38,345 nucleotides of DNA from an uncultured Bacteroidia bacterium (lineage in GTDB: Bacteria; Bacteroidota; Bacteroidia; Bacteroidales; UBA932). Positions 16,513 to 38,345 of the stretch are shown one piece after another (within the stretch, counting starts at the first letter, position 1; each line of letters begins with the position of its first letter). Under the pieces are notes generated by a model. It made no database searches. It was not told where the DNA came from and worked only from the letters and a program-made list of their open reading frames with translations. Position numbers and translations under genes: made by a program. The stretch covers positions 1 through 38,345 of the forward strand of contig CACYZM010000015.1 in the NCBI GenBank assembly GCA_902778855.1, read 5' to 3'.

Positions 16513-18513
<2,001 letters not shown>

Positions 18514-18530
18514 TTTTATTACAGAATAAT

Positions 18531-19790
18531 ATGGATATTTTTGAAAGAATCGCAAAAGATTCCGGCGGCCCGCTGGGACAGTATCGTGACAAGGCCTTCG
18601 GCTACTACATGTTCCCCAAACTGGAAGGAGAACTGGGACCCCATATGCGGTTCCAGGGCCAGGAAGTCCTCTGCTGGAGCCTCAACAACTACCTGGGCCT
18701 GGCCAACCACCCGGCGATCCGCAAGATCGACGGTGAAGCCGCAGCCCGCTGGGGCCTCGCGTATCCGATGGGTTCGCGCATGCTGACCGGACATACCTCG
18801 CTCCACGAACGCCTCGAACGTGAACTGGCCGACTTCGAGAAGAAGGAAGACGCTTTCCTCTTCAACTTCGGCTACCAGGGCATTGTCTCGACCATCGACG
18901 CGCTGGTGAGCCGGCACGACGTGATCGTCTATGACAACGAGTGCCACGCCTGCCTGCTCGACGGTATCCGTCTCCACATCGGCAGCAAATACAAGTATCG
19001 CCACAACAACATCAAGCACTGCGAAACGATCCTCGCGCGCGCCTGCGCCGAAGCCGAGAAGAACGACGGCGGCGTGCTGCTGATCACCGAAGGCGTCTAC
19101 GGCATGACCGGCGCCCTGGGCATCCTCGACCAGATCGTCGCGCTGAAGAAGAAATACAAATTCCGCATCCTGATCGACGATGCGCACGGTTTCGGCGTCA
19201 TGGGCCCCCACGGCCGCGGCACCTCCGAGCATTTCGGCGTGATGGACGACATTGACCTCTACATCGGTGCCTACGCCAAGAGCATGGCCATCATCGGCGG
19301 CTTCGTGGCCGGCCCGCACGCCATCATCAACTACCTGCGCTACAACCTGCGTTCGCAAATCTATGCGAAGGCGCTCCCGATGCCCATCGTGGAAGGCTGC
19401 CTCAAGCGTCTGGAAATCATCCGCGGTCCGGAAGGCGACGAACTTCGCAACAAGCTCTGGACCATCACCCGCGCCCTGCAGGACGGTCTCCGCAAACGCG
19501 GATTCGACATCGGCGTGGCCGAGGCCTGCGTGACGCCTGTCTTCCTGAAAGGCAATATGGCCCAGGCGACCAACATCCTGATCGACCTGCGCTCGAACTA
19601 CCACATCTTCTGCTCCGTGATTACCTATCCGGTCGTTCCCGAGGGAATCCTGATGTACCGCATCATCCCCACGGCCGCCCACACGCTCGAAGACGTGGAA
19701 TACACGCTCAACGCCTTCGCCGAAGTGCGCGAGAAGCTCGACAAGGGTGTCTACGACTCCGACACCATCCTGAACATGAGCATCAAGTAG
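18531..19790 (+). CDS. PLP-dependent alpha-oxoamine synthase family enzyme
   Basis: 419 aa fold-type I enzyme. The family condenses an amino acid with an acyl-CoA and releases CO2 (serine palmitoyltransferase, cysteate acyltransferase, 2-amino-3-ketobutyrate CoA ligase, 8-amino-7-oxononanoate synthase). Motifs: WSLNNYLGLANHP, YPMGSRMLTGHTSLHERLE, NFGYQGIVSTIDALV, DNECHAC with the PLP-stacking His, LLITEGVYGMTG, IDDAHGFGVMG with the PLP Asp, and the Schiff-base Lys in YIGAYAKSMAIIGGF. It resembles the form widespread in Bacteroidetes that is usually annotated as KBL or BioF; no bio or threonine genes are adjacent, so sphingolipid or sulfonolipid head formation is possible. It follows gyrB by 17 bp and may be co-transcribed. 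Confidence 0.85.
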   Translation: MDIFERIAKDSGGPLGQYRDKAFGYYMFPKLEGELGPHMRFQGQEVLCWSLNNYLGLANHPAIRKIDGEAAARWGLAYPMGSRMLTGHTSLHERLERELADFEKKEDAFLFNFGYQGIVSTIDALVSRHDVIVYDNECHACLLDGIRLHIGSKYKYRHNNIKHCETILARACAEAEKNDGGVLLITEGVYGMTGALGILDQIVALKKKYKFRILIDDAHGFGVMGPHGRGTSEHFGVMDDIDLYIGAYAKSMAIIGGFVAGPHAIINYLRYNLRSQIYAKALPMPIVEGCLKRLEIIRGPEGDELRNKLWTITRALQDGLRKRGFDIGVAEACVTPVFLKGNMAQATNILIDLRSNYHIFCSVITYPVVPEGILMYRIIPTAAHTLEDVEYTLNAFAEVREKLDKGVYDSDTILNMSIK

Positions 19791-25226: not shown

Positions 25227-26126
25227 TCATTCATATTGCTCGAGCATGGCCTTAATGTCGGCATGAATCACGTCTCGGAACGATTCTGGCGCGAGAACTT
25301 CTACCCAAGGACCTTTACTGAGTACTTCCTGCTCGAAGTCGAAGGTAGGAACGAGCTTATATTCGAAGAGTGTGGATTCATTGGTTGACTCGATCTCGCG
25401 CTGCGAACTGTGAAGCGGCAGCGATATAAAGTATTTGACTTGTCTGGCTTTGACTTTCAATTGAATGGTTTCAGGCTGGCAATTGTTTACATAGATCCCG
25501 AAATAATGGCTGAAGAACTCGTCGGCTTTGAACTTCTTGGGAATCTTGAGTGCATTCTTTGTCTCATTGACTGCGCGGATTCGATCGAGGGCGTAGATGC
25601 GAGGTTCCTTGTAGGTTTCGCTTCGGGCAAGAAGATACCAGCGTTGCTTGAAGAGTTTCAGACACCAGGGATGCGCCTCGAAGGTGGCAGGTTCTGTGCG
25701 ATTGAAACTCTGGTAGGTCATTTCGATGGTCTTGTTATCCCGCATGGCGTTTACTATGGCGGTCAACCAGCGCTGGCTGGATGGTATTTCTTCGAAGAGG
25801 ATGCGGTCACGCATATCGCGAGACTCATTCAGCAGGTTGTTCATTGAGAGGGATTCGAGCAACCACCGACGGATGCCATCTTCTTCCATATCTTCACGAT
25901 TGGCGATGTAGTAGCCCAATGACCGGTCGCACTTGATCTCGATGCCGAAGGTGTCCAGAATGGCTTCCCTGTGATTGTGGAAAGTGCGCTCCGCGAGGTA
26001 ATTTTCCCCTAGCTTGTTAATCGGGCTATGCGCCCACAGATAACTGATCTCCTTGAACGAGATGTGCCCGTGCCTGTTGATGGTGTCAATCAGCCAGATG
26101 TAGCGGTCGAAGTAGTTCTTGGCCAT
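25227..26126 (-). CDS. WYL-domain transcriptional regulator
   Basis: 299 aa, ATG read from 26126. The N-terminal part (about 1-75) is a winged helix: YIWLIDTINRHGHISFKEISYLWAHS, then LAERTFHNHREAILDTFGIEIKCDRSLGYYI. The middle carries the WYL domain, with the name-giving residues W163-Y164-L165 in RWYLLARSETYKEPRIYALDRI. A C-terminal WCX-like region ends KGPWVEVLAPESFRDVIHADIKAMLEQYE. WYL proteins sense nucleic acid or nucleotide ligands and control defence and DNA-repair genes (PafBC, BrxR, CapW are examples). Its promoter carries the 15-bp site found at four other promoters nearby, so it is the prime candidate to bind that site and regulate itself. It lies 62 bp behind the AAA+ gene on the same strand. 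Confidence 0.9.
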   Translation of the reverse strand: MAKNYFDRYIWLIDTINRHGHISFKEISYLWAHSPINKLGENYLAERTFHNHREAILDTFGIEIKCDRSLGYYIANREDMEEDGIRRWLLESLSMNNLLNESRDMRDRILFEEIPSSQRWLTAIVNAMRDNKTIEMTYQSFNRTEPATFEAHPWCLKLFKQRWYLLARSETYKEPRIYALDRIRAVNETKNALKIPKKFKADEFFSHYFGIYVNNCQPETIQLKVKARQVKYFISLPLHSSQREIESTNESTLFEYKLVPTFDFEQEVLSKGPWVEVLAPESFRDVIHADIKAMLEQYE

Positions 26127-26148
26127 ATTCCTCTGTCATTTATCGATA

Positions 26149-26182
26149 CAAAGATAAAAACAAAAACTGCCAAAAAGTGGCA
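26149..26182 (-). promoter_or_regulatory. Regulon site A plus -7 box (WYL gene)
   Basis: Read on the minus strand: TGCCACTTTTTGGCA (26182-26168), 11 nt, TATCTTTG (26156-26149), then 22 nt to the ATG. Flanking bases extend the arms to ACTGCCA/TGGCAGT (26166-26184), 7 bp each. Lying just after the AAA+ stop and followed by T-rich sequence, the same hairpin could also terminate AAA+ transcription. Confidence 0.8.
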
Positions 26183-26188
26183 GTTGAT

Positions 26189-27829
26189 TTAGAAACCGAT
26201 TTTTCTTTTCGATTCACTACCGGAAAGGGTTTCTTCTTCGCAGTAGGAGCGGATGGCGGCGTAGTTGGGTTCAACTGTTTCCAGGATGGCAGCAATGGCA
26301 CGCTTGCGAGAAACGTTTTCAATTTGCCCACCGCTGAAATCGTAGTCAGTTGCCAACTGAATGGATTCGTCTTCTGAAAGAACCGGAATCATCGATTGCC
26401 AGATGGCTGCACGAGCTTCTATTGAAGGCTTCTCAAAGTGGACCTTGTAGAGGAAGCGACGCTCGAATGCTTTGTCAAAGTTGGACGTGAGATTTGTTGT
26501 GGCCATCAGAATGCCGTCCAGGTCTTCCATCTCCTGCAGTATGATGTTTTGAAGACTGTTCTCCATTTTGTCCACGGCGCGTTCCGCTCCCAGTTGCCGG
26601 ATGCCGAAGATGGCGTCGGCTTCGTTGAAGAGCAGAATAGGGATTGTTCCGCCCGCTTTCACGGTTTGGCGGTACTTGTCGAAGATCTCCTTGATGTTCT
26701 TTTCGCTTTCTCCCACCCAGCAACTCTTGATCTGGGACACATCGATGATGAAGAGGTCGCGGCCACTCTCGCGGGCAATCTGGTAGACGGTTTCTGTTTT
26801 GCCGGTTCCGGGACTGCCATAGAACAAGCAGGTGAATCCTGTCCTCAAGCCCTTTTCCTTCATCTTCTGGCGTATTTCCTCAAAACGTCTCTCGTTCATC
26901 AACTCTATCAAACGCTTTACTTGCTGGCCTTCTAAAGAGTTGTAGAACAATGTCTTTTTCGTAATCTCCGACGCACTCAGCTTCCGGGATGCTTTCACGA
27001 AGGACTCCACTTTTCTGACACCGCCCACATCTGCAAAGAGTTCTTCTTTCACGTTTTGCGTAATCCGGAAGTAGTCTTTATTCATCATACCGTTCATTCC
27101 GGAAGGCTCAATGATCTTATCTAATTGTAGAATAAGCCTTTTGCGTCGATATAAAGACTTCAGCCATGCCAGTTCGTCTTCGTTCACGTAGTCGTCCAAA
27201 TCGTGCCAGCCTACCATATCGTCGTTTTCAAAATAGTAGCGATAGACCAGACCGTAGAGCGTTACGCTTTCCCGATAGTCGAGTTCGGAAATGATTCTTC
27301 GTATCGTCCGGGACACGCTGTTCTCAGGATTGAGTTCCATCAAAGTTGTCAGGTCTTCTTCCATTTCTTGTGCTGTGCACTGGTCCTCTTTTCTGATGGC
27401 AAGGGCGTGTTTGATTCGGATCAGTAACTCGCTGGCATCGAGTCCCGTTAGAGGTTCCGGCCGGATGGGCATGTTTTCTGTCAAACTGTTCAGGACGTTT
27501 TTGGGGATGACAATGTTCCCTTCCCTGTCGATGCGGATGTATCCGCGTTTTCTGATGCCTTCCATTTCCTGATGGTAAGTCAAGAACTTAAGGTAGTCCA
27601 ACCCGAGCATATCGGCAATGTCGCTGCTTTCAACACAGAAATGCGACGACCTTTGTACGATGGCAGTGAGGATAACGACCTGCATTGGGCTGATTTCCAG
27701 TAGTTTTGTCAATGCGCGAATATCTGCTGATGCCTTCGGCATTTTTCCCAACTCCATTTGGATGCTGTTCTCCACCGGCCTCATCTTTTGCGCAATACTG
27801 CACATTCTTTCAATAATCGTCTTGGCCAT
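26189..27829 (-). CDS. AAA+ ATPase with N-terminal winged-helix-like region
   Basis: 546 aa from the ATG read at 27829 (MAKTIIERMCSIAQK). A longer frame to 27856 needs a TTG inside the -7 box and was rejected. The first 330 residues contain LLEISPMQVVILTAIVQRSS and a following helical/wing segment but no named domain I can place. The AAA+ module is clear: Walker A GSPGTGKTETVYQIA (about 337-351), pore-loop-like SQIKSCWVGESEKNIKEIFDKY, Walker B PILLFNEADAIFG (about 396, with Asn where Asp is usual before Glu-Ala-Asp), sensor ATTNLTSNFDKAFERRFLYKVHF. This pattern is closest to the CDC48/FtsH-like classic clade, so a remodelling ATPase is likely. Driven by regulon site B. Confidence 0.85.
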   Translation of the reverse strand: MAKTIIERMCSIAQKMRPVENSIQMELGKMPKASADIRALTKLLEISPMQVVILTAIVQRSSHFCVESSDIADMLGLDYLKFLTYHQEMEGIRKRGYIRIDREGNIVIPKNVLNSLTENMPIRPEPLTGLDASELLIRIKHALAIRKEDQCTAQEMEEDLTTLMELNPENSVSRTIRRIISELDYRESVTLYGLVYRYYFENDDMVGWHDLDDYVNEDELAWLKSLYRRKRLILQLDKIIEPSGMNGMMNKDYFRITQNVKEELFADVGGVRKVESFVKASRKLSASEITKKTLFYNSLEGQQVKRLIELMNERRFEEIRQKMKEKGLRTGFTCLFYGSPGTGKTETVYQIARESGRDLFIIDVSQIKSCWVGESEKNIKEIFDKYRQTVKAGGTIPILLFNEADAIFGIRQLGAERAVDKMENSLQNIILQEMEDLDGILMATTNLTSNFDKAFERRFLYKVHFEKPSIEARAAIWQSMIPVLSEDESIQLATDYDFSGGQIENVSRKRAIAAILETVEPNYAAIRSYCEEETLSGSESKRKIGF

Positions 27830-27853
27830 AGTTGTTGCTTTAGATTCACAGTG

Positions 27854-27887
27854 CAAAACTAAGTCAGTGATTTGCCAAAAAGTGGCA
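27854..27887 (-). promoter_or_regulatory. Regulon site B plus -7 box (AAA+ gene)
   Basis: Minus strand: TGCCACTTTTTGGCA (27887-27873), 11 nt, TAGTTTTG (27861-27854), 24 nt to the ATG. The core is identical to site A. An additional GATTTGC/GCAAATC pair (27869-27875 and 27888-27894) flanks it. Confidence 0.85.
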
Positions 27888-27930
27888 GCAAATCGGAAGT
27901 CTATATGCGTTTATATGGTTTCGACCAGCC

Positions 27931-27964
27931 TGCTGTTTTTTGGCATTCGGGGACTCTATCTTTG
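27931..27964 (+). promoter_or_regulatory. Regulon site B2 (degenerate) plus -7 box (RadA-like operon)
   Basis: TGCTGTTTTTTGGCA (27931-27945), 12 of 15 bases matching sites A and B, then 11 nt and TATCTTTG (27957-27964); 35 nt to the ATG at 28000. It forms a divergent pair with site B. Confidence 0.7.
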
Positions 27965-27999
27965 CGAATGATTTGAATATTTGAGTCAGCGAAATAACG

Positions 28000-28869
28000 A
28001 TGGCGAATGAAGTAATCAGGATGCGGGATATGCATTTCAATCCGGAATTGTTCTGCAATTATATGAGCGGAACAGTGCTGGACGAATTGCTTTGCAGCTA
28101 CAACGGCCTTCCTAAAGGCGTGAACTATATGATCATCGGCGATCCTGGTGTGGGTAAGACCACAATCATCCTGGATCTGCTGTCAAACATCCGCAGCTTC
28201 AATCCGGGCGTTCGTGTTCTCTTCATCAGTGCAGAGATGAATGAAATCGACCTGGCCATCTATGTCCAGCGCTTCCCGAAATTTCAGGACTTGGACATCC
28301 TCTTTGTCGAGGCCGGTTTTGACGAAGAATCCCATACCCATAATTTGGAAACTATCAAAAGAATCCTGGAGCGGGGATGGGATATCGTGGCCATCGACTC
28401 GTTTTACGAGTTGCAAGGCATCATCAAGGATGAAGAAGGCCTGACTCTGAAGAAGGCGGAAAGCATTCTCCTGTCTTTGATCAAGCACCAGAACAAGGCG
28501 TCCAATGACCGCGGCGTCAACACGACGTTTCTTACCATTCAGCAAGTCACGAAAGCGGGGCATTTCATCGGCTCCAATCGCCTGAAGCATTCGATCACGG
28601 CTATGCTTGAGTTGCGGCTGGAGAACCCCAAGAACATCTATTCCGACAGATATGCCGTCTTCAGCAAGCATCGAAGGGGTGATGTCGGCGTGCGCCTGTA
28701 CTACGATCTCTCGGTGACCGGCGATGTCTATTATAACGAAGAAAAGTTCGAGCAGGACCGCAAACTTCGGAAACTGCAATCCACGGCTTCCAGCAGTCTC
28801 CGCCAGTTTGCAGACCAGTTCGACAGGATATTCAATCATCAACAAACGAGAATAATTGATAATGAGTGA
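28000..28869 (+). CDS. RadA/KaiC-like RecA-superfamily ATPase
   Basis: 289 aa. Walker A GDPGVGKTTIILDLL (about residues 47-55), strand and Glu of VLFISAEMNEIDLAIYVQRF, Walker B WDIVAIDSFYEL (about 129-135), then a RadA-like segment TTFLTIQQVTKAGHFIGSNRLKHSITAMLEL followed by YAVFSKHRRGDVGVRLYYDL, which aligns with RadA's HVTKEG...LEH...KNRFG region. It lacks the RadA zinc finger and the LonP-like C-terminal domain. RadA is a hexameric branch-migration helicase in recombination, so action on DNA is plausible but the specific role is unknown. First gene of a five-gene operon under site B2; its end overlaps the next gene by 8 bp. Confidence 0.8.
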   Translation: MANEVIRMRDMHFNPELFCNYMSGTVLDELLCSYNGLPKGVNYMIIGDPGVGKTTIILDLLSNIRSFNPGVRVLFISAEMNEIDLAIYVQRFPKFQDLDILFVEAGFDEESHTHNLETIKRILERGWDIVAIDSFYELQGIIKDEEGLTLKKAESILLSLIKHQNKASNDRGVNTTFLTIQQVTKAGHFIGSNRLKHSITAMLELRLENPKNIYSDRYAVFSKHRRGDVGVRLYYDLSVTGDVYYNEEKFEQDRKLRKLQSTASSSLRQFADQFDRIFNHQQTRIIDNE

Positions 28870-29971
28870 AGTGGATCTTACTAAATTGCGGCAGTATGTG
28901 GCTGCTGTGGCAAATCCTTACAAGGTGGTCCGTAGGGACGCTATCGAATATGTGGGCCGCTTGCAAGACGGCTCTGAAATCACGGCACCCTATGAGGGTT
29001 ATGGAAAGAATGTCTACCGGGTGGAAGGCTCTGAGCTTCTGGTCAACGATACGGTATCCCGACAGCTTGATAAGATTATAGGCCTTACTACGAAGCATAC
29101 CAAGATCGTCAAGAACGCATCAGGGGAAGATGGCGTACGCGACTTGCGCAACTATTTTGCAATCGCCGGATCCATGTCGTCTCCTGTGTCTGTTGCGTTG
29201 ATTGCCAATCCTAAGAGCCGCACGGTCAGTGGTTTGGTTCCCATCGAAGAAGAACCTATCAGCGCAGAGGTTTTCTTCGATTTTCTGGAGATGTTTCTTG
29301 ACAAAAATCAGCTCTACCCAGTCAGGTACGAGACGGCCTACGACATTGTCGCCGGACTCACGATCTTCCTCGACAGCGCTCAACCTGAAGTGCGCCAGAT
29401 CGCTCCTGGTGAAGACTTCCTAGTCAACTCCTATTACCTCAAATGGCACCTTGGGCAGATTGAATTGGGCAGATACTATGAGCGTCTGATCTGTTCCAAT
29501 GGGCAAACTGTAACGATCAAAAACAGAGAAGCCCGAGCGACATCTGTCCGTGAAGACAGGATTGGCGGATTCCTGGATATTCCCCGCAATATGGGCCTGT
29601 TGAATGACGATTTCGACAGGTTTACCGGGAAGGCTCTGGAAGCGATGGAAGTACGTGCGTCGATAGCTGAACTGAAATGGGTTTCTGACAAGTTGGAAAA
29701 ATGTCTGGTCGATAGCCAGGCGGCTATGGCCATAGCGCCTTTTGCGGACGAGCACAAGAAGTACATGGATGCCGGATTTAGACCAGAACAACTAAGCACG
29801 CTGAAAGCAAGCATGTCGGTGTGGGAACTGTACAATGGGATGACAGACTATGCCTCCAATAACACGACCTGGGAGCGCAGAGACAACCGCCGCGGTATTT
29901 TGCAGGCCGAGGCCATCAAATTCCTTATGCGTGAACGGGACATCAGGAACTACTCGGATATTTTCGCATAA
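28862..29971 (+). CDS. DUF932-like protein of unknown function
   Basis: 369 aa, ATG at 28862 inside the end of the RadA-like gene. Segments such as YLKWHLGQIELGRYYERLICSNGQTVTI, a central beta-rich part (RNYFAIAGSMSSPVSVALIANPKSRTVSG) and the late WELYNGMTDYASN segment recall the DUF932 family of phage and plasmid proteins, which often accompany DNA-processing genes. This is a weak family match by eye. No signal peptide, membrane helix or catalytic motif. Translational overlap with the RadA-like ATPase suggests the two proteins act together. Confidence 0.6.
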   Translation: MSEVDLTKLRQYVAAVANPYKVVRRDAIEYVGRLQDGSEITAPYEGYGKNVYRVEGSELLVNDTVSRQLDKIIGLTTKHTKIVKNASGEDGVRDLRNYFAIAGSMSSPVSVALIANPKSRTVSGLVPIEEEPISAEVFFDFLEMFLDKNQLYPVRYETAYDIVAGLTIFLDSAQPEVRQIAPGEDFLVNSYYLKWHLGQIELGRYYERLICSNGQTVTIKNREARATSVREDRIGGFLDIPRNMGLLNDDFDRFTGKALEAMEVRASIAELKWVSDKLEKCLVDSQAAMAIAPFADEHKKYMDAGFRPEQLSTLKASMSVWELYNGMTDYASNNTTWERRDNRRGILQAEAIKFLMRERDIRNYSDIFA

Positions 29972-29988
29972 GTTCGTAACTTAACAAA

Positions 29989-30489
29989 ATGATTCAGTAC
30001 ATCGCAGATGATGACCATTTCAAGGAGGTAATTGCTCGCGTTCCCAACGTGAAGAAACTCCTGTGGATTGGAACCGCCGACATCAAGGATTTGTATGTCG
30101 GCGATCGCCCGTTCCTGGGCGTGTTGGCCGACTTGGTCAGCCGTGGCCGGGAAGTACGGCTGATCCATGCCAAGGAACCCGGGCCGAACTTTCGCGAAGA
30201 CTTTGACCATTATCCGATTCTGTTTTCCGAGATGGAACGAATGCTATGCCCGCGCGTCCATTTCAAAATCATCATTTTCGACCTGACGATGGCCTACATC
30301 GGTTCCGCCAACCTTACTGGTGCCGGCCTCGGCATGAAGGCCCGAGGGCGCCGTAACTTCGAAGCCGGCATCCTGACCGATGACCCCGAATTGGTTGATG
30401 CGGCCATTAATCAGTTCGATGCCGTCTGGGCGGGATTCAAGTGCAAGAAGTGCGGCCGGAAGAAGTTTTGTGGAGATCCGATAAAATAG
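29989..30489 (+). CDS. Single-HKD phospholipase-D-like protein (probable nuclease)
   Basis: 166 aa. One HKD motif: His91-x-Lys93-x4-Asp98 in VHFKIIIFDLTMAYIGSANLTGAGLG, with the conserved GSANLTG (about 104-110). PLD-fold nucleases such as Nuc, BfiI and the DrmC/defence-associated PLDs carry one motif per chain and work as dimers. The N-terminal half has the expected beta-alpha pattern (VKKLLWIGTADIKDL, REVRLIHAKEP). A short C-terminal tail FKCKKCGRKKFCGD holds three Cys, possibly metal binding. Substrate is inferred to be nucleic acid from context with the RadA-like ATPase. Gap of 17 bp to the gene before and 7 bp to the one after. Confidence 0.8.
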   Translation: MIQYIADDDHFKEVIARVPNVKKLLWIGTADIKDLYVGDRPFLGVLADLVSRGREVRLIHAKEPGPNFREDFDHYPILFSEMERMLCPRVHFKIIIFDLTMAYIGSANLTGAGLGMKARGRRNFEAGILTDDPELVDAAINQFDAVWAGFKCKKCGRKKFCGDPIK

Positions 30490-30496
30490 CAAAGAC

Positions 30497-31069
30497 ATGA
30501 AGATCCATAAAATAGAGAGGCTCTATCGCTTAATCGGCAGCGATCAGAGATTCGATTATCGATATGGGATGTTTACTACTGAATATTCATCGGACTGTCT
30601 GTTCCGCATATCTTTTAGTCAGGACTCTTTTCTTCAGCGCCTTGGAATGCCTCCAAAACTTATCATTCGCACCAACCAGAAGAAATATGAATTCTACGGA
30701 ATGCAGGATTATGATGAGTCAAAGCTAAGCTGGTTTTTCCCCATCAATGTTAGGAAAATGGTGGAACTCGCAGATGCCTCCAGTATTGTGGTTATGAAAA
30801 TTGAACATTTTGATAACGATCTCGATTTATTCCAATACGAGCCCAATGTTTGGAGCGCTTTCTTCCGTGCTGGAGTGGCTGAGTGCATTGAGGCGACAGA
30901 CGGCTCTTTGGAATTGGAAGCATTTTATCTCCAGCGCGCCCTTGCATGTGCCAGATTTGAGATAATGACTCATCTGAAAACCGGCAAAGAAGCTATAGAC
31001 GAAATGGCGGACATCGTCTTGGATCCTCATCTCTATGATGTGGCGACAAGTGTCAAAGGATTGCACTAA
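30497..31069 (+). CDS. Protein of unknown function in the RadA-like operon
   Basis: 190 aa; I do not recognise it. Soluble, no signal peptide or membrane helix. The first half is beta-rich and basic (MKIHKIERLYRLIG..., LFRISFSQDSFLQRLG, LIIRTNQKKYEFYGMQDYDESKLSWFFPINV); the second half is helical and acidic (PNVWSAFFRAGVAECIEA, LQRALACARFEIMTHLKTGKEAIDEMADIVLD). Its 7-bp spacing from the PLD gene shows it belongs to the operon. AT content is higher than in the flanking PLD and phosphoesterase genes. Confidence 0.7.
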   Translation: MKIHKIERLYRLIGSDQRFDYRYGMFTTEYSSDCLFRISFSQDSFLQRLGMPPKLIIRTNQKKYEFYGMQDYDESKLSWFFPINVRKMVELADASSIVVMKIEHFDNDLDLFQYEPNVWSAFFRAGVAECIEATDGSLELEAFYLQRALACARFEIMTHLKTGKEAIDEMADIVLDPHLYDVATSVKGLH

Positions 31070-31097
31070 GCAATAGAACAATCAGACTTGTCCTTTT

Positions 31098-31688
31098 ATG
31101 CTCATCAATAGTAAGGGACATAAGATCTTCGCCTTCGCCGACCCCCAGGGGCTGTATCGGCGGCTGCAGGTGCCTGGGGATGTGGACATTCTCATTTGCG
31201 CTGGGGATGCTTGCGAGGGCTTTGCGCCTGGTGAACTGAGGGACTTCTTTGCCTGGTACATCAGCATCCCGGCGAAGCTCCGCATCTTTGTTGCCGGCAA
31301 CCACGACATGGTCTTTGATCAGCAGCCAGAGTATGCCCGGAGCCTTGTTCCCGATGGGGTCATGCTTCTTGAGAACGACGGGCTAGAGTTCGATGGAATC
31401 AGTTTCCACAGCGTGGCTGCGAGGCCGTACCTGGATGGAGCTATCACCTTGCCAGACGGTATAGATTTCCTCATCACTCATGGCCCCGCCTATGGACATC
31501 TGGACCGGGGTGAGGGAGATCGCAACCTATATCTGGCCATCGCCAAGGCGCGGCCCAAATACCACATTTTTGGCCATGTCCACGAGGAAGGGCTGAAGAG
31601 AGAAGCGATGCTTTGGGGAACGACTTATCTCAACGTGGCGTATTTCAACTCGCTTCGTTATTGTTCTCCGAGCGAAGGTTCTTCATAA
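31098..31688 (+). CDS. Calcineurin-like metallophosphoesterase
   Basis: 196 aa. Metal-site motifs: ICAGDACEG (GD near 36-37), VAGNHD (67-70), LITHGPAYGHLD (His128), IFGHVHEEG (His160 and His162). The first motif, usually D-x-H, reads FADPQG (Asp15, Gln17), so one metal ligand is changed. The family includes phosphodiesterases, nucleotidases and the Mre11/SbcD nucleases; size and the GHVHE ending fit a small stand-alone phosphoesterase. Last gene of the operon; its final 44 bp overlap the end of the convergent ParE-like gene. Confidence 0.85.
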   Translation: MLINSKGHKIFAFADPQGLYRRLQVPGDVDILICAGDACEGFAPGELRDFFAWYISIPAKLRIFVAGNHDMVFDQQPEYARSLVPDGVMLLENDGLEFDGISFHSVAARPYLDGAITLPDGIDFLITHGPAYGHLDRGEGDRNLYLAIAKARPKYHIFGHVHEEGLKREAMLWGTTYLNVAYFNSLRYCSPSEGSS

Positions 31689-33522
31689 TGAACCGTTGCC
31701 GTTCGGCTGTATTTTCTCCCATATAGAAGGCCAGAAGAGATTGGACATCTTCAGCGTCATCGATAGTGATCTGCTCAAGACGCATGTTCTCGCCGATGAA
31801 ATCGTGAAACTCTTTCTTGTTGATTTCTCCAAGACCTTTGAAGCGTGTGATTTCCACTTTTTCGTTTCCCTTGCTGAATTCGGCAATCGCTGCGTCCCTT
31901 TCGTCCGGGCTGAAACAGTATCGGTTGTGTTTCTTGGTCCTGACACGAAATAGTGGGGTTTCCAAGATATACAGATGACCGGCGCGGATCAGGTCTTGAT
32001 AGTACTTCAAAAAGAAAGTGATCAGGAGCAGGCGGATATGCATCCCGTCGTCATCGGCGTCCGACGCAACGATTACTTTGTTGTAGCGCAATCCTGCAAG
32101 ACCGTCACTCAAACCGAGTGCCGCCACCAGGTTCCGTAATTCAGCATTCTCCAGCACCTTTGCGTCGCTGCTGCGGTAGCTGTTTTTCGACTTGCCGCGA
32201 ATGCTGAAGACAGCTTGATAGATGGGATTTCTGGCTTCGGTAACTGTGCCGCTTGCCGATTTCCCTTCTGTGATGAAGATACTGGTCTGGTTAACATACT
32301 GGGCCATCTCTTTTGAAATACGGCCTCCGTAGTGTACCTTACAGTCTCTCAGATTCTCATTATAAACATGGGATGATTTCGCGCTTTTGTTCCGATTCTT
32401 GATCTCGTTGATTTCCTGACGGAGCCTATACGCCTGTTTGACCTTTTTCTCGATTATTGCGGCTACTTCTTTATGGGATAGCAAGTAATTATCCAGATTC
32501 CTGCTGACGAAATCATTGATGAATGACCGGATGGTCAGCCCGTCACCGCTTTCCGTTTTCCGTATATGTGTAGATTGGAGCGCTACTTTTTGTTGTGATG
32601 CGAAAATCGGATCTTGCATATGAATGTAAATCGCGCCGACAAGCCCCTGGCGGCAATCGTCTGGGATGTAGTCTTTCTTGAAGAAGTCTACAAGAGCTCG
32701 TGCCACTGCTTCTTTGTAGGCTGTAAGGTGCGTTCCGCCGTCAATGGTATATTGCCCGTTGACAAACGAGCCGATGTTGGTTCCGCTTCCGTCGTAATGG
32801 GTAAGGACCATCTCAATATCATCCCCTTGCAAATGAATGGGTTCATACAAAGGCGGCTCCGGGATGTTGTACTTGACCCAATCTGGAAGGCCATTTTCGG
32901 ACCGGTATTGAATGCCGTTCAAAGTAATGATCAAGCCCTTTTTTACGCAGGTGTAATTTCTGACCATCTGTTCAACGATATCCATTCGGTAGGCAAAGTC
33001 AGGAAACAACATTTCATCGGGAGTGAACCGGACATAGGTGCCATTCTTTTCTTTGGTGGTATCCCGTCCGCTATCCTGAAGCTGCCCACGAGAGAATTGT
33101 GCCCAAGAGCATTCGCCGTTTCTATACGAGGCCACATAAAAGTCAATCGACAGGGCATTGACGGCTTTTGTTCCGACTCCATTCAGGCCGATAGATTTCT
33201 TGAAGACCGAATCATCGAAACGGCCACCCGTGTTCAGGACGCTGGTCGCCTTGATTACCGAACCGAGCGGTATCCCGCGGCCATAGTCCCGAACCGTGGC
33301 GGTTCGTTCATCTACGTCCACGATGATATTCTTCCCGAACCCCATGGTGTACTCATCAATGGAGTTGTCAATGATCTCCTTCAGAAGTGTGTAGATGGCA
33401 TCTTTGGGCTCAGCCCCGTTTCCCAATTGGCCAATGTACATACCCGGACGGCGGCGTATGTGCTCGTGCCATTCAAGCGTCTGGATACTCTTTTCGTCAT
33501 AGATGCTGGTTGTGAATTCCAT
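31645..33522 (-). CDS. Divergent ParE-like type IIA topoisomerase subunit B
   Basis: 625 aa, ATG read from 33522 (MEFTTSIYDEKSIQTLEWHEHIRRRPGMYIG); a longer frame to 33576 would run through regulon site C. GHKL ATPase: LLKEIIDNSIDEY (Glu49), DYGRGIPLG (80s), GLNGVGTKAVNALS (112-125). The Lys loop reads FASQQKVALQS instead of QTKTKLGS. TOPRIM: EGKSASGTVTEARN (about 419) where EGDSASG is usual, and SDADDDGMHIRLLL (about 489). Overall it is nearest to Bacteroidetes topoisomerase IV subunit B (ParE), but changed at normally conserved places and without a ParC gene in view. Site C places it in the WYL-linked regulon, so it looks like an accessory paralogue rather than the housekeeping enzyme. Confidence 0.88.
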   Translation of the reverse strand: MEFTTSIYDEKSIQTLEWHEHIRRRPGMYIGQLGNGAEPKDAIYTLLKEIIDNSIDEYTMGFGKNIIVDVDERTATVRDYGRGIPLGSVIKATSVLNTGGRFDDSVFKKSIGLNGVGTKAVNALSIDFYVASYRNGECSWAQFSRGQLQDSGRDTTKEKNGTYVRFTPDEMLFPDFAYRMDIVEQMVRNYTCVKKGLIITLNGIQYRSENGLPDWVKYNIPEPPLYEPIHLQGDDIEMVLTHYDGSGTNIGSFVNGQYTIDGGTHLTAYKEAVARALVDFFKKDYIPDDCRQGLVGAIYIHMQDPIFASQQKVALQSTHIRKTESGDGLTIRSFINDFVSRNLDNYLLSHKEVAAIIEKKVKQAYRLRQEINEIKNRNKSAKSSHVYNENLRDCKVHYGGRISKEMAQYVNQTSIFITEGKSASGTVTEARNPIYQAVFSIRGKSKNSYRSSDAKVLENAELRNLVAALGLSDGLAGLRYNKVIVASDADDDGMHIRLLLITFFLKYYQDLIRAGHLYILETPLFRVRTKKHNRYCFSPDERDAAIAEFSKGNEKVEITRFKGLGEINKKEFHDFIGENMRLEQITIDDAEDVQSLLAFYMGENTAERQRFIMKNLRSENNNEAS

Positions 33523-33541
33523 TGCAAGTCTATTCTGACTG

Positions 33542-33575
33542 CGAATTAAGACAATCTGACTGCCAAAGAGTGGCA
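33542..33575 (-). promoter_or_regulatory. Regulon site C plus -7-like box (ParE-like gene)
   Basis: Minus strand: TGCCACTCTTTGGCA (33575-33561), 11 nt, TTAATTCG (33549-33542), 19 nt to the ATG. The -7 box is weak, which would suit a promoter needing an activator. A TAGACTTG at 33532-33525 is a possible alternative -7. Confidence 0.75.
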
Positions 33576-33592
33576 TATTCGTGTATCTTAAT

Positions 33593-33627
33593 GGCTTTTG
33601 AAAGCCCGTCGAAAAACATTATATTTG
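33593..33627 (+). promoter_or_regulatory. Promoter of the DUF262 pair
   Basis: TTTG (33597-33600), 19 nt, TATATTTG (33620-33627): a standard Bacteroidetes promoter. Its -33 element is inside GGCTTT-TG-AAAGCC (33593-33606), a 6-bp-arm inverted repeat that may be a separate operator. The 15-bp regulon site is absent. Confidence 0.7.
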
Positions 33628-33695
33628 TATGATAACACTAAACTTGCTATGGTTTGGCAGGAATGAGTATTAGTTTTGTCCAAAAGTTTTATACT

Positions 33696-35519
33696 ATGGC
33701 CGAAGAAATAACACTGAAATCCATATCTGAATTAAGCGGGTTAGTCTTCAAGAGTCCGTACCAGCAGAGAGGGTATAAATGGACAGAGGATAATATCAAT
33801 ATCCTCTTGCAAGATTTCCATGATTTTATTCACTCGGATAAAATCATGTACTGCCTCCATCCTATAACTGTATATCTTGAAGGGGGCGCTTACTTTGTCG
33901 TTGACGGTCAACAAAGGCTTACGAGTCTTTTCCTTCTTCAGAAGTATCTTATTGAGGAATGCAAGGCACAACTCGACACATACACTCTCGACTACGAAAG
34001 AGATGAAGATAATGAACGTTACAATCTACTCACGAAACCAATTACCCAGTTAATTGACACGGATTCTGATCATTTTTTCATCACGCGTGCCTACTTGACA
34101 ATCAGGAATGCTTTCTCAAAGCAGAATTCTCCTTATAAAACAGAGGAGTTTGTAGATTTGCTGGTAAAAAAGAAGGAGGAAAAGTCTGTCCAGGTCATTT
34201 GGTATCAGTTAGAAGACGATAAAGTAGCGCATCAGGTGTTTCGTGATCTCAACAGTGGAAAGATTCAATTAACAAACGCCGAGTTAATTAAGGCTTTACT
34301 TCTTAATAGAACAAATGGCTTAAAAAACCATGAACAGATTGCAGCTCAGTTTGAGTCTATTGAGCGAGGATTAGACAATGACAGACTTTGGTTTCTTTTT
34401 AATAATGACAAGACGCTAAAAACCGCAAAAGGGCAATCCAGGATTGATATGTTATTCAACATCGTAACTGGCATTGCTCCGTCAGACTATGAGATAGAGA
34501 CCAGGAAGTCGTTTTTTGAACTTAGCGCACACAAAGAACAGCTTAAGGAGAAGTGGGATAAAGTCTTGGATATTTATTCCCGCATTATGGAATTCTACCA
34601 AGACGTTTATATCTATCATTATATTGGCTTCTGGAACTATTTTAAGGGAGGCGGTAAAAAATTCTCCTTGCAGGAGATGTTAAAGCGTAGTGAAACTCTT
34701 GGTAAATGTGCTTTTAAAGAGTCGCTGCGCAAAGAATTAGTGAGTTTGCTGAATATGGACAAAGAGTGGTTCTCCTGGAATGCGCTTGTCTATGGAAATG
34801 ACACAAAAACCCTGCGTGGCGTGTTCTTGTTGCACAATATAGCAACCATTCTATCTTCCTATGATTCGTTGAACGATTCTCTTGAACGGCACGGGAAAGG
34901 GACTGCCCGTACCTATGAGTACTTTCCGTTTGATCTGCTACACAAGCAGAATTGGGATATTGAACACATCTCGTCTCAAACAGAGAATGATTTTACTTCC
35001 GAGTCAGACAGGCAGGATTGGCTGGAAGGCGTTCAGGCTGATTTTAATTTCCCTCAAGCTGCAGAAAGAATTGCGAATGACGAGACGTTGGAAGGAAAAC
35101 AAGCCATGGAGTTACTGGCTTTATATGATAAACTCGATGCATCAGACAAGACTTCTTTTAATAGATTCTATGAGAAGTTCGTTGAGCTATACGACAACAA
35201 AATTGAGAATAAAAACGGCTTAGGTAATTTAGTGCTTCTTGATAGTCATACTAATCGTTCATTCCACAACTCTTTGTTCCCAAGGAAACGTCGTATTGTT
35301 ATCATAGCAGATGGCGGTTCCCAGGATTCAGAAATCAAGGAGAGAGTCCAACGCGTTTATATACCAGTCTGTACTCGGAACGTATATCTAAAAGCATACA
35401 ACAAAAAAAGGGATGTATCATTGACTAATTGGACCCAAGATGACTATGATGCCTATTATGAGGACATTAAGCAAAAGATTACAGACTATTTCATATCTCC
35501 GAAGAATGTCAAAGCATGA
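33696..35519 (+). CDS. DUF262-DUF1524 protein (GmrSD/SspE-like nuclease subunit)
   Basis: 607 aa from ATG 33696 (MAEEITLKSISELSGLVF); ATG 33663 and TTG 33654 are alternatives. DUF262 part: FKSPYQQRGYKWTEDNINILLQDF, then VVDGQQRLTSLFLL (about 68-75) and the second motif FRDLNSGKIQLTNAELIKALLL. Near the C-terminus the DUF1524 HNH-like nuclease region: NWDIEHISSQTE (His near 423) and NGLGNLVLLDSHTNRSFHNSLF (about 506-527). This is the architecture of GmrSD type IV restriction enzymes and SspE, which use the DGQQR NTPase site to sense or license cleavage of modified or unmodified phage DNA. Strongly AT-rich compared with its surroundings. Overlaps the next gene by ATGA. Confidence 0.87.
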   Translation: MAEEITLKSISELSGLVFKSPYQQRGYKWTEDNINILLQDFHDFIHSDKIMYCLHPITVYLEGGAYFVVDGQQRLTSLFLLQKYLIEECKAQLDTYTLDYERDEDNERYNLLTKPITQLIDTDSDHFFITRAYLTIRNAFSKQNSPYKTEEFVDLLVKKKEEKSVQVIWYQLEDDKVAHQVFRDLNSGKIQLTNAELIKALLLNRTNGLKNHEQIAAQFESIERGLDNDRLWFLFNNDKTLKTAKGQSRIDMLFNIVTGIAPSDYEIETRKSFFELSAHKEQLKEKWDKVLDIYSRIMEFYQDVYIYHYIGFWNYFKGGGKKFSLQEMLKRSETLGKCAFKESLRKELVSLLNMDKEWFSWNALVYGNDTKTLRGVFLLHNIATILSSYDSLNDSLERHGKGTARTYEYFPFDLLHKQNWDIEHISSQTENDFTSESDRQDWLEGVQADFNFPQAAERIANDETLEGKQAMELLALYDKLDASDKTSFNRFYEKFVELYDNKIENKNGLGNLVLLDSHTNRSFHNSLFPRKRRIVIIADGGSQDSEIKERVQRVYIPVCTRNVYLKAYNKKRDVSLTNWTQDDYDAYYEDIKQKITDYFISPKNVKA

Positions 35520-38044
35520 ATACATTTAAGAATACATTTATCGACAAAAAGAAGAGCATTCTAATTCCTCTTCTTCAACGGGACTATGTACAGGGAGGAC
35601 GGCCAGACATCATAAAACCACTTTTAGATAATGCAATAGAAGCATTAACAACGTCAAGGAAACTCGAGCTGAACTATATTTATGGCTACGACGAAAATGA
35701 TGATGCGTCATTATATGTAGCCATTGACGGTCAACAAAGGCTTACTACACTCTGGCTTTTGCACTTATACATTTATAGCCTAACTGGAGTAAGCTACTCA
35801 GTGAAACTGCAATTTCAGTCACGGCAATCCGCGCAGGCGTTTGTTGACAACCTAATGAAAGAGTTGCCCACATTGCTTCCTGAAAAGAAAGGAGAAATAG
35901 TTGATGTAATCACAGACGCTCAATGGTTCCGTTCATTTTGGAATGAGGACCCGACAGTACGGAATATGCTTCAAGCACTTCGTCTTATTGACGATAAAGA
36001 CATCCCTACCGAAATGTCACAGCTCATGCTGGACAACATTCAGTTCAGTTTCCTCAATATGAAAGAAAAGGGACTGGACGATGATGTGTATATCAAAATG
36101 AATGGTCGTGGCCGCCCCTTATCCTATTTTGAGAACGTAAAGTCCTGGATGGACGAACAGGTGAAAACAATATGGGGAGAAAACGACCAATTCACAAAAG
36201 CGTGGCGCTCTTCTATGGATGGCAAGTGGGCCGGAATGTTTTGGCAGGAGCGGAACAAGGGCCAGCAGCATCCAGAAGAAATAGACGATGAGCAACTTCG
36301 CTTTCTTTATTCGGCGCTTTTGCTTTTTTGGGTACAGAATAGAGAGAAATTGAAGATTAATCTTTCACTTGTCACAGATAATTATCTTTTCACGTCACTC
36401 TGTGATTTCATGGATGTCGAAGAAAAGAGTGCAAAGGATAATTCCGATGTACTTGCGAATGCGGTATTCCGGATTCTAAGAGAAGGTAGAAAGATGATTC
36501 CGGTGTTCTGGTTGGACAAACTCGCATTATTCAACGAGTCGGTTTTTACTTTCATACAGAACAGTCTGGATAGGTTGTGTAATTTAGCTCCTCGAATTCG
36601 TGGATTAGAGTTTCTGTTCCCAGACTATGAGGTCTCAAAACAAACATCTTTACTATACCACTTGGCCTTTGCAGAAGAGGCTTCTTATAACAAGACTTTG
36701 CCAGTATTATACGCAATCTTAAAGAGTCCCTATGAACAGCAAGGACATCTTTCCCACTGGCTCAGAGTGATTAGGAACCTGGTTGTCAATTCCTCAATTG
36801 ACTTAAAAGATATGGTTGATGTGCTGGGTAGTATTGATTATCTGGAAGTAAATTCGTCCCAAGATGAGTTCAATCTTTATTCTCTGCTGTTAAAGGACGG
36901 TATATCAAAACAAATCAGAGGCTTCAGTCAGAATCAAGTTAAAGAAGAAATAACGAAGGCGGCTTTTATGGCATCAGGCTTTGATTGCACACTCGTAGCC
37001 AAAGAAGCCTCTTTAACAAGGGACAGTCTTGCAGAATCAATGATCTCTCTGGAGAATCTACCGCAGTTTCAAGGGCAAATCCGATTCATGTTTAAGATTT
37101 TGGGAGAGCCCATTGAGACAGTAGAGTATGCGAACCAGTTTGAGAGCGCGGGTAAAGTTATGGCAGAGTCCATCACATGGAATAAGGGAGAAATCCGGAC
37201 AGCATATCCTGATTCATTATTTAGGAGAGCTCTGATGACCTATCCCCCTCATTGTTTCGGCAAATCATACGGCAATTACAAGTGGCAGAATATTTACGGC
37301 AATCAGTGGAAAGAGTATTTAGTAAGCACAGGAAAACTCTCGTATGATGGCGTAGAATATGAACAGACAGATGCGTTGAAAAGCTTAATCCTTGATGTTT
37401 GTCAAACTCTTGAAGGAAAGGAGATTACCAAGGAGTCAATCTGCAAGGCTATTGCAAATAGAGTCTCTTTTTTCTCCGATCCGGATCAATTGGATTGTTA
37501 TTGGAAGCATTTTGTCCGTCACCCTGGTGTATGGTCATATATGGAGTACAAATTGACTAATGACTGGGACAATGGAAATGATATTAATCTGATTCGCAGT
37601 ATTAATATTGGTCCTCGAATGAATCTTAGGACATTGAGTCTATTTTTAGATATTTGTGATACGGGACAACTATCTCTTAAGAATTACTATAATTCGTGGG
37701 ATGGTCCATATAAATCAGAATACGACGATGATTATAAAACATCCTGTTTCCGTTTTGAAAAACACCTGGAGGATGATAATCATCTCTTGATAGATGTGTT
37801 TCATTCTTTTAAGAAGGAAGAAGACTACCATATCCAAGTATTCGTCAAGAAACCCGACAATCTTACGAATGAGGAGTTTGCGGCAAAAAGAGCTCAGTTC
37901 TATTCTGTAAACCAGATTTCTGGTTTTGAATATGCAAAAACCAGGAATGGAGAAGCAAGGACTACGCGATTGGAGTCGGGAACTCTTACTCGAAATGAGA
38001 CCATCTCATTATTAAAAGAGTTGCTGACGAGAGATTGGAAATAG
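35516..38044 (+). CDS. Large DUF262 protein, partner of the preceding gene
   Basis: 842 aa. DUF262 N-terminus: LIPLLQRDYVQGG (16-28), AIDGQQRLTTLWLLHLY (71-78 core), YIKMNGRGRPLSYFENVKSWM (about 192-212). The remaining 600 residues are mostly helical with no HNH or other nuclease motif that I can see; the C-terminal 120 residues (FRFEKHLEDDNHLLIDVFHSF...) are beta-rich. Start overlaps the first gene's stop (ATGA at 35516-35519), so both are made together, probably as a two-subunit complex in which only the first carries the HNH site. Paired DUF262 genes of this kind occur in defence islands; its specific function here is unknown. Confidence 0.85.
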   Translation: MNTFKNTFIDKKKSILIPLLQRDYVQGGRPDIIKPLLDNAIEALTTSRKLELNYIYGYDENDDASLYVAIDGQQRLTTLWLLHLYIYSLTGVSYSVKLQFQSRQSAQAFVDNLMKELPTLLPEKKGEIVDVITDAQWFRSFWNEDPTVRNMLQALRLIDDKDIPTEMSQLMLDNIQFSFLNMKEKGLDDDVYIKMNGRGRPLSYFENVKSWMDEQVKTIWGENDQFTKAWRSSMDGKWAGMFWQERNKGQQHPEEIDDEQLRFLYSALLLFWVQNREKLKINLSLVTDNYLFTSLCDFMDVEEKSAKDNSDVLANAVFRILREGRKMIPVFWLDKLALFNESVFTFIQNSLDRLCNLAPRIRGLEFLFPDYEVSKQTSLLYHLAFAEEASYNKTLPVLYAILKSPYEQQGHLSHWLRVIRNLVVNSSIDLKDMVDVLGSIDYLEVNSSQDEFNLYSLLLKDGISKQIRGFSQNQVKEEITKAAFMASGFDCTLVAKEASLTRDSLAESMISLENLPQFQGQIRFMFKILGEPIETVEYANQFESAGKVMAESITWNKGEIRTAYPDSLFRRALMTYPPHCFGKSYGNYKWQNIYGNQWKEYLVSTGKLSYDGVEYEQTDALKSLILDVCQTLEGKEITKESICKAIANRVSFFSDPDQLDCYWKHFVRHPGVWSYMEYKLTNDWDNGNDINLIRSINIGPRMNLRTLSLFLDICDTGQLSLKNYYNSWDGPYKSEYDDDYKTSCFRFEKHLEDDNHLLIDVFHSFKKEEDYHIQVFVKKPDNLTNEEFAAKRAQFYSVNQISGFEYAKTRNGEARTTRLESGTLTRNETISLLKELLTRDWK

Positions 38045-38105
38045 GCTTCATTCAAGAAGACAGAGCGCCTCAGCGCTTGCTACAAGAATAACGCATCTTA
38101 AAGAC

Positions 38106-38139
38106 TGCCACTCTTTGGCAACTTCATGCCGTATCTTCG
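38106..38139 (+). promoter_or_regulatory. Regulon site D plus -7-like box
   Basis: TGCCACTCTTTGGCA (38106-38120), identical to site C, then 11 nt and TATCTTCG (38132-38139). The next ATG is 4 nt further on. The gap 38045-38105 before it holds only a short AGCGC/GCGCT hairpin near 38065-38080 without a T tract. Confidence 0.75.
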
Positions 38140-38143
38140 CGGC

Positions 38144-38278
38144 ATGATACTCAAAGAATTGATACAGAAGTATGAGTTCGACGCGATTGTGCCGGACCTT
38201 CTTGCTGATAGTATCCCCAAAAGTCTTAGAATACTGGATGGAACGCTGGTAGCGTTCCATCCAGTGTGTCTGGAGTAG
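38144..38278 (+). pseudogene. Short ORF under site D, probably a truncated gene
   Basis: 44 codons plus TAG: it begins MILKELIQKYEFDAIVPDLL, resembling the first residues of a Bacteroidales protein family (DUF6557-like, from memory and not certain), then loses resemblance and stops soon after a perfect 15-bp inverted repeat. The position right behind a regulon promoter argues that a real gene started here. It may be a remnant, or a genuine small protein. Confidence 0.4.
38233..38265. repeat. Perfect 15-bp inverted repeat with 3-nt loop
   Basis: ACTGGATGGAACGCT (38233-38247), GGT, AGCGTTCCATCCAGT (38251-38265). No T tract follows, so it is not an ordinary terminator. It lies inside the short ORF. 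The remaining 38279-38345 shows nothing recognisable. Confidence 0.85.
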
Positions 38279-38345
38279 GGTCTGCAATTTAAAGAACGTT
38301 CAAAGTTACATCATTTTTCTTGTTATCCAAGGAGACTGGCCCCTT

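Follow-up and report, generated by a model that had tools for sequence, protein, structure and literature searches.

What do the genes for an AAA+ ATPase, a RadA-like protein, a ParE-like protein, and a pair of DUF262 proteins share, such that each is preceded by the same type of 15-bp site at the same distance from its promoter box, and which protein reads this site? The question arises on contig C15 of a Bacteroidales genome of 2.41 Mb in 79 contigs. The contig was analyzed over its full 38,345 bases, which we refer to as the window. Its left 24 kb has a GC content of 58-64%, and ten ORFs scanned there include ordinary genes (GMP synthase, glycoside hydrolase, tyrosine integrase, GyrB/ParE, Lnt, and LysE). 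The right 12 kb, in which the finding sits, has a GC content of 40-50% and carries an island with a single WYL gene:

25227-26126, minus strand: WYL and WCX regulator, 299 aa, with an N-terminal winged helix, the proposed activator (Pfam WYL 6e-17, WCX 9e-8; structural model nearest DriD)
26189-27829, minus strand: AAA+ ATPase, 546 aa, IetA/TRIP13/CDC48-like by family searches, with a homologue in 30 of 80 WYL loci
28000-28869, plus strand: RadA/RadB/KaiC-like ATPase, 289 aa, gene 1 of a probable operon
28862-29971, plus strand: 369-aa protein with a weak DUF932 match (E 0.007, below the cut-off)
29989-30489, plus strand: phospholipase-D-like (PLD) domain protein, 166 aa, part of which resembles DrmC
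30497-31069, plus strand: 190-aa protein without a family match
31098-31688, plus strand: metallophosphoesterase (PADLOC PDC-S10)
31645-33522, minus strand: ParE/GyrB-like protein, 625 aa; this is the second such gene in the window, the other GyrB/ParE lying at 16549-18510
33696-35519, plus strand: GmrSD_N and GmrSD_C (DUF262) type IV restriction-like protein, 607 aa from the ATG
35516-38044, plus strand: second GmrSD_N (DUF262) protein, 842 aa
38144-38278, plus strand: terminal ORF of 44 codons, a doubtful regulon member

The sequence-only reading had proposed five promoters, those of sites A to E below. Direct inspection locates all five in the orientation and at the coordinates listed, each 11 nt from an 8-mer resembling a -7 box. 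The count itself was short, because a sixth site (F) precedes the GmrSD/DUF262 pair:

26168-26182, minus strand: site A, TGCCACTTTTTGGCA, the WYL gene's own promoter, conserved before WYL homologues; -7 box TATCTTTG at 26149-26156; matrix score 38.9
27873-27887, minus strand: site B, TGCCACTTTTTGGCA, promoter of the AAA+ gene; -7 box TAGTTTTG at 27854-27861; score 26.5
27931-27945, plus strand: site C, TGCTGTTTTTTGGCA, promoter of the RadA/KaiC-like gene and its probable operon; -7 box TATCTTTG at 27957-27964; score 34.1
33561-33575, minus strand: site D, TGCCACTCTTTGGCA, promoter of the ParE/GyrB-like gene; poor -7 box TTAATTCG at 33542-33549; score 16.8
33645-33659, plus strand: site F, TGCTATGGTTTGGCA, promoter of the GmrSD_N/DUF262 pair; -7 box TAGTTTTG at 33671-33678, 17 nt from the ATG of the 607-aa GmrSD_N gene; score 16.4
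38106-38120, plus strand: site E, TGCCACTCTTTGGCA; -7 box TATCTTCG at 38132-38139; score 26.2

The gap between site and 8-mer is exactly 11 nt at all six places, and the best-scoring site is that of the regulator's own promoter. With the -7 box placed at -12 to -5, a numbering taken from Flavobacterium (available text of PMC6847099), the site spans -38 to -24 and its invariant GGC falls at -27 to -25; its centre, earlier put near -31 to -33, is at -31. As for the genes that the five promoters were thought to unite, the WYL, AAA+, RadA-like, and ParE-like genes are retained, while the terminal ORF is doubtful: it has only 44 codons, is predicted to be leaderless (transcription would begin at its start codon), and has no relative in the 88 loci compared and no match in Pfam. 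Near the contig end, within this ORF, lies a 14-bp perfect inverted repeat (CTGGATGGAACGCT/AGCGTTCCATCCAG, 3-nt loop, 38234-38264).

Could such an arrangement be fortuitous? Allowing up to three mismatches, the site alone has six matches in the window against 1.77 expected, a number reached in 2 of 100 shuffles. These six loose matches are the five sites first reported and one at 18932, which was rejected as a member since it is without a box at 11 nt. The site by itself is a weak test of chance, and the spaced form is a strong one. Exact copies of the site number four in the 2.41-Mb genome, all within C15; four two-mismatch matches elsewhere in the genome were rejected for want of a -7 box at 11 nt. 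When the degenerate spaced pattern was searched in 395 genomes of the phylum, taken irrespective of a WYL gene, all five hits fell in C15 and none in the other 394 genomes, and the reversed pattern gave two hits over the same 395. At the scale of its own genome, the spaced motif is absent from unrelated promoters.

The comparison upstream of close WYL homologues finds the motif beside them. A WYL-first scan yielded 534 loci, the best 80 of which were taken (L027-L106); among the matches listed, the closest WYL relative (Bacteroidales UBA3290) shares 92% identity. Such a site lies within 200 nt upstream of the WYL gene in 55 of the 79 loci examined (L040, in which the contig end truncates the WYL gene, was left out), and in 52 of 79 it stands 11 nt from a box matching at least 5/6. 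A scoring matrix was built from 47 distinct sites and applied to 1.40 Mb of loci, some of them overlapping; the scores of individual sites leave out L020, whose WYL region is covered by L080. At a score of at least 12, it finds 225 sites versus 0 in reversed sequence; at a score of 10, 239 versus 5. At least one site scoring 16 or more is present in 77 of 81 loci (the window plus L027-L106), and 58 of 81 have two or more. Counted without presuming a gap of 11, 143 sites have 11 nt and 22 are spread over the other 30 gaps in the range 0-30, with at most three cases at any gap other than 11 nt (some loci overlap). Within the site, the TTTTGGCA half is almost invariant, and the upstream TGCC/TGCT half is looser but conserved. 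An ORF starts within 60 nt of the box in 162 of 192 cases versus 1518 of 3000 random positions, which is a weak test.

How closely does the motif travel with this WYL subfamily? When 198 genomes of the order were scanned for the motif first, the strict form appeared in six, the own genome included. The site adjoins a WYL gene of 40-49% identity in G041, G173, and G120; in G081, the two first-found sites lie 11-13 kb from the WYL gene, and a further site (L020, 9256, minus strand) is about 150 nt away. Among WYL-bearing genomes (42 searched, from 43 of the 80 loci), 35 of 42 contain the spaced motif against 0 for the reversed control, with a pattern that was derived from these loci. Within the 198 order genomes, 13 of the 30 that have a WYL homologue at E<=1e-40 contain the motif, versus 7 of 168 others (Fisher 6e-8, the cut-off being post hoc), and at E<=1e-20 the figures are 15 of 73 versus 5 of 125 (p 4e-4). 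The strict pattern is missing from 17 of the 30 genomes with a close homologue, and the seven others have the motif without such a homologue; in one of these, G039, a weaker WYL homologue lies 1.2 kb from the site. Of the 13 matching order genomes, 8 have the motif close to the WYL gene; it is not close in G003, where it is 18 kb away, or in G021, G055, G142, and G166. In the last four, the spaced motifs (G021:C2:206764, G055:C94:24939, G142:C18:61861, G166:C9:12279) are on a contig other than that of the close WYL homologue and are either distant regulon members or chance occurrences.

The link between motif and WYL gene weakens with distance. In the order sample, 7 of 29 WYL genes have a site in their own promoter and two more do so with one extra mismatch (L167 gave no row in this count); for WYL genes below 40% identity, the figure is 0 of 11. 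Three of 11 plasmid WYL matches were examined. A Prevotella plasmid locus of 44.7% identity, outside the training loci, has three sites (scores 18.4, 13.3, and 22.2), all at 11 nt, which precede the WYL gene, an unnamed gene, and that of an ATP-binding protein. Two Segatella plasmid loci of 38-40% identity have no site before the WYL gene, and one of these plasmids carries, some 12 kb from that gene, a site scoring 34. Three WYL-bearing fragments from a phage collection (of five matches) gave one weak site each in two and none in the third, and a viral-contig scan with the WYL protein as query returned no match. The recognition helix and the operator covary: with R at residue 47, operator position 3 is C (118 C, 1 T, 1 G), and with K it is mostly T (11 T, 4 C), although on the tree this amounts to one or two evolutionary changes (the short WYL genes of L060 and L101 were left out of alignment and tree). 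Because the same site recurs beside homologues with a single 11-nt gap and a clean reversed control, the WYL protein is the likely binder. The earlier suggestion that it is the natural one thus holds up for a candidate, the motif being present beside close homologues and absent at unrelated promoters of its own genome.

Across the 81 loci, about 40 protein families lie downstream of sites. At a score of at least 14, the clusters include WYL (58 sites), AAA+ (27), a second WYL-like protein (8), ParE-like (6), and PLD (3), while RtcB, SpoU methylase, metallophosphoesterase, FtsK-like, GmrSD_N, and PD-(D/E)XK genes are behind sites in single or few loci. The second WYL-like gene is found in eight loci, and its representative falls just under the Pfam cut-off; Pfam leaves 6 of the 19 scanned family representatives without a match. 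In most clusters, the start codon follows the box at a median of about 17-34 nt. The cargo probably consists of defence and repair genes. Within the Bacteroidales, it seems likely from these sequences, as part of the activator reading set out below, that the regulator is constant and the cargo is exchanged, each cargo gene or operon coming with its own copy of a WYL-type promoter. The clustered site-controlled ParE-like genes of five sibling loci encode only 187-353 aa. The GmrSD/DUF262 pair of the window recurs in 5 of 80 WYL loci (L030, L068, L076, L078, and L098), each with an AAA+ gene, and the Prevotella/Segatella plasmid loci (L179-L181) carry various of DUF262, metallophosphoesterase, PLD, and ATPase genes. 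RtcB stands behind the same promoter type in L103 (254, plus strand; Pfam-checked) and, by clustering, in L089 (8729, plus strand) and L099 (8730, plus strand), as does a SpoU methylase at L094:3299 (plus strand). Such RNA-repair or modification cargo hints that the regulon may also answer RNA damage.

A -33 TTTG (gap 17-23) is found in 1 of 186 site promoters versus 33 of 205 ordinary ones, although the site alone forbids TTTG at the best gap and thereby accounts for part of the loss. At -18, the site promoters have an AT content of 0.61 versus 0.87 in ordinary promoters, and at -52 to -46 it is 0.69-0.81 versus 0.56-0.68. The TTTTG of the site was rejected as a normal -33 element, as it lies 14 nt from the box and the ordinary TTTG peaks at 19-20 nt. 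The WYL protein, in turn, was modelled with AF2 at a pLDDT of 84.2, the linker region being least certain (56-66). By Pfam and model, it has the layout of DriD: an N-terminal winged helix, a helical linker, WYL, and WCX. In a Foldseek search of the PDB, the best 11 matches are all DriD (E 4.5e-14 to 1.3e-11), followed by PafBC, and CapW and BrxR begin at 8.5e-7 and 1.4e-6; the TM-scores to DriD are only 0.41-0.56, and the match does not speak to domain arrangement. A profile search places PafBC (2e-16) and DriD (4e-12) first, with CapW at 0.004 and BrxR not within 0.01.

Taken together with the comparisons above, we consider it probable that a WYL homodimer activates its own, the AAA+, the RadA-like operon, the ParE-like, and the GmrSD/DUF262 promoters from six sites at the -33 position. 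What the sequences themselves show is the site with its exact spacing, the tie to the WYL subfamily, and the absence of a -33 element; binding by the WYL protein, its homodimeric state, and activation over repression are what we infer from them. In this mechanism, the WYL protein (25227-26126) would bind TGCC(A)-N5-TGGCA at -38 to -24 as a homodimer and occupy the place of the -33 element that the site promoters lack. It would anchor RNA polymerase that carries the housekeeping sigma factor at promoters keeping only a -7 box and so co-activate the genes just named, working much as DriD does in Caulobacter, with a looser likeness to mycobacterial PafBC. The AT-rich stretch at -52 to -46 may let the alpha-CTD dock upstream of the WYL protein. 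By analogy, the signal could be single-stranded DNA or another nucleic acid held in the WYL domain, which would arise during phage attack or DNA damage. Activation had been preferred earlier on account of weak -7 boxes. The preference still appears sound, on better grounds: the position of the site at -38 to -24 with near-absolute spacing, the missing -33 element, and the predicted kinship with DriD and PafBC as the nearest structural relatives.

The same protein on the same sites might instead be a repressor that blocks polymerase as long as the cell is uninfected and lets go once a ligand fills the WYL domain, and we regard this as unlikely but worth serious weight. The WYL regulators of the defence systems BREX and CBASS, BrxR and CapW, are described as repressors in the available text of PMC9122588 and PMC9122601, and a site over -38 to -24 overlaps the core promoter, which would suit repression too. 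Among 186 -7 boxes, 90 have one of the two best sequences (TATCTTTG or TACCTTTG), as in a strong promoter that is repressed; with half of the boxes so good, the loss of -33 partly built in, and the best site at the regulator's own promoter, repression retains its share. Yet a repressor does not need an exact gap, and 143 gaps are 11 nt with no other value exceeding three cases. According to the accessible sections of the same two reports, CapW sites overlap the -10 and BrxR R-BOX1 is downstream of the promoter, which is not where the present site lies (-38 to -24). The ordinary features (-33 TTTG, AT-rich -18) are missing from the site promoters, and both structure and profile place DriD and PafBC above CapW and BrxR.

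Two further readings were considered. The fixed spacing and the asymmetry of the 34-bp unit, with TTTTGGCA near-invariant and the upstream half looser, resemble a two-part promoter, such that TTTTGGCA would be the upstream element and TAnnTTTG the -7 box of an alternative sigma factor. This is very improbable: the upstream TGCC/TGCT half is conserved and completes a palindrome of the kind expected for a winged-helix dimer; the ten island proteins scanned include no sigma family; and the motif goes with the WYL subfamily and its recognition helix. We give hardly any credence to the palindromes being intrinsic terminators or hairpins rather than protein sites. Site A with its flanks (26165-26185) does resemble a terminator hairpin by its score and lies right after the AAA+ stop codon, but 26000-38345 has 11 terminator-like sites versus 11.3 in shuffles, only site A of the six is among them, and the sites precede start codons and keep a single gap to a -7 box. 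Site A may possibly serve the AAA+ gene as terminator in addition, a double use.

If the WYL protein is indeed an activator, how does it compare with those already described? PafBC is a heterodimer, whereas here there is mostly one clear WYL gene and a palindrome; the PafBC element is not known to be palindromic. Its likeness lies in being a WYL activator, which, as far as the available text describes it, wedges itself between DNA and sigma domain 4 and recognizes a motif at -26. Both PafBC and SiwR use -26 elements (accessible parts of PMC11804915 and PMC10693628), and the GGC of the present site is at -27 to -25. SiwR of Mycobacterium smegmatis is a homodimer on a 19-bp imperfect palindrome between -10 and -35, in which the -26 region with a conserved GGA is required for activation; it differs in having so far been shown at one operon (dinB-like genes) in the available portion of PMC10693628. 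DriD of Caulobacter crescentus is alike in its winged helix, helices, WYL, and WCX, in a palindrome over -35/-33 at a fixed distance from -10/-7, in poor -35/-33 elements (here partly built in by the site), and in serving several promoters. In the available text of PMC12340889, its sites overlap the -35 at one distance from the -10, its promoters are poor, and it contacts the alpha-CTD and beta. It differs in its site (ATACGAC-N7-GTCGTAT versus TGCCA-N5-TGGCA) and in its host sigma factor, and it controls DNA-damage genes, not a cargo-swapping island. The same text describes DriD as not activating its own gene, whereas here the own promoter has the best site. BrxR and CapW, from the accessible parts of their reports, are likewise WYL regulators, of phage-defence systems, with palindromic or inverted-repeat sites, and they differ as repressors acting over the -10 or downstream of the promoter and as more distant relatives in sequence and structure.

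We lean, by a narrow measure, toward a wider reading in which these loci form a plug-in defence regulon of the Bacteroidales: a DriD-like WYL activator would take over the -33 contact of the housekeeping polymerase where a promoter has only a -7 box, and unrelated defence and repair genes would join through a 34-bp promoter with an exact 11-nt gap. Candidate members are AAA+, GmrSD/DUF262, PLD, metallophosphoesterase, ParE-like, RtcB, SpoU methylase, FtsK-like, and PD-(D/E)XK proteins, and, if this is true, one nucleic-acid signal would induce a swappable arsenal. In the open-access literature, subscription papers being mostly outside its scope, we found no Bacteroidales WYL regulon and no WYL activation with a Bacteroidota sigma factor. 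As far as that literature shows, a Bacteroidales WYL regulon with exchangeable cargo genes, each with a WYL-type promoter, is new. For the unit-wise switching-on of defence islands, sequence alone here gives the regulator, the operator, and the exact promoter geometry. The regulon would extend WYL activation to the divergent Bacteroidota sigma factor, would test the generality of DriD-like promoter takeover, and marks genes without an assigned function as co-induced defence candidates. Motif and geometry together also offer a way to seek the regulon in other Bacteroidales genomes. In G608 (C6:71897 and 110991), G630 (C83:27848), and G607 (C16:87727), copies of the motif are separated from the WYL gene by about 20 kb or are on a different contig, so the regulon may extend past the island.
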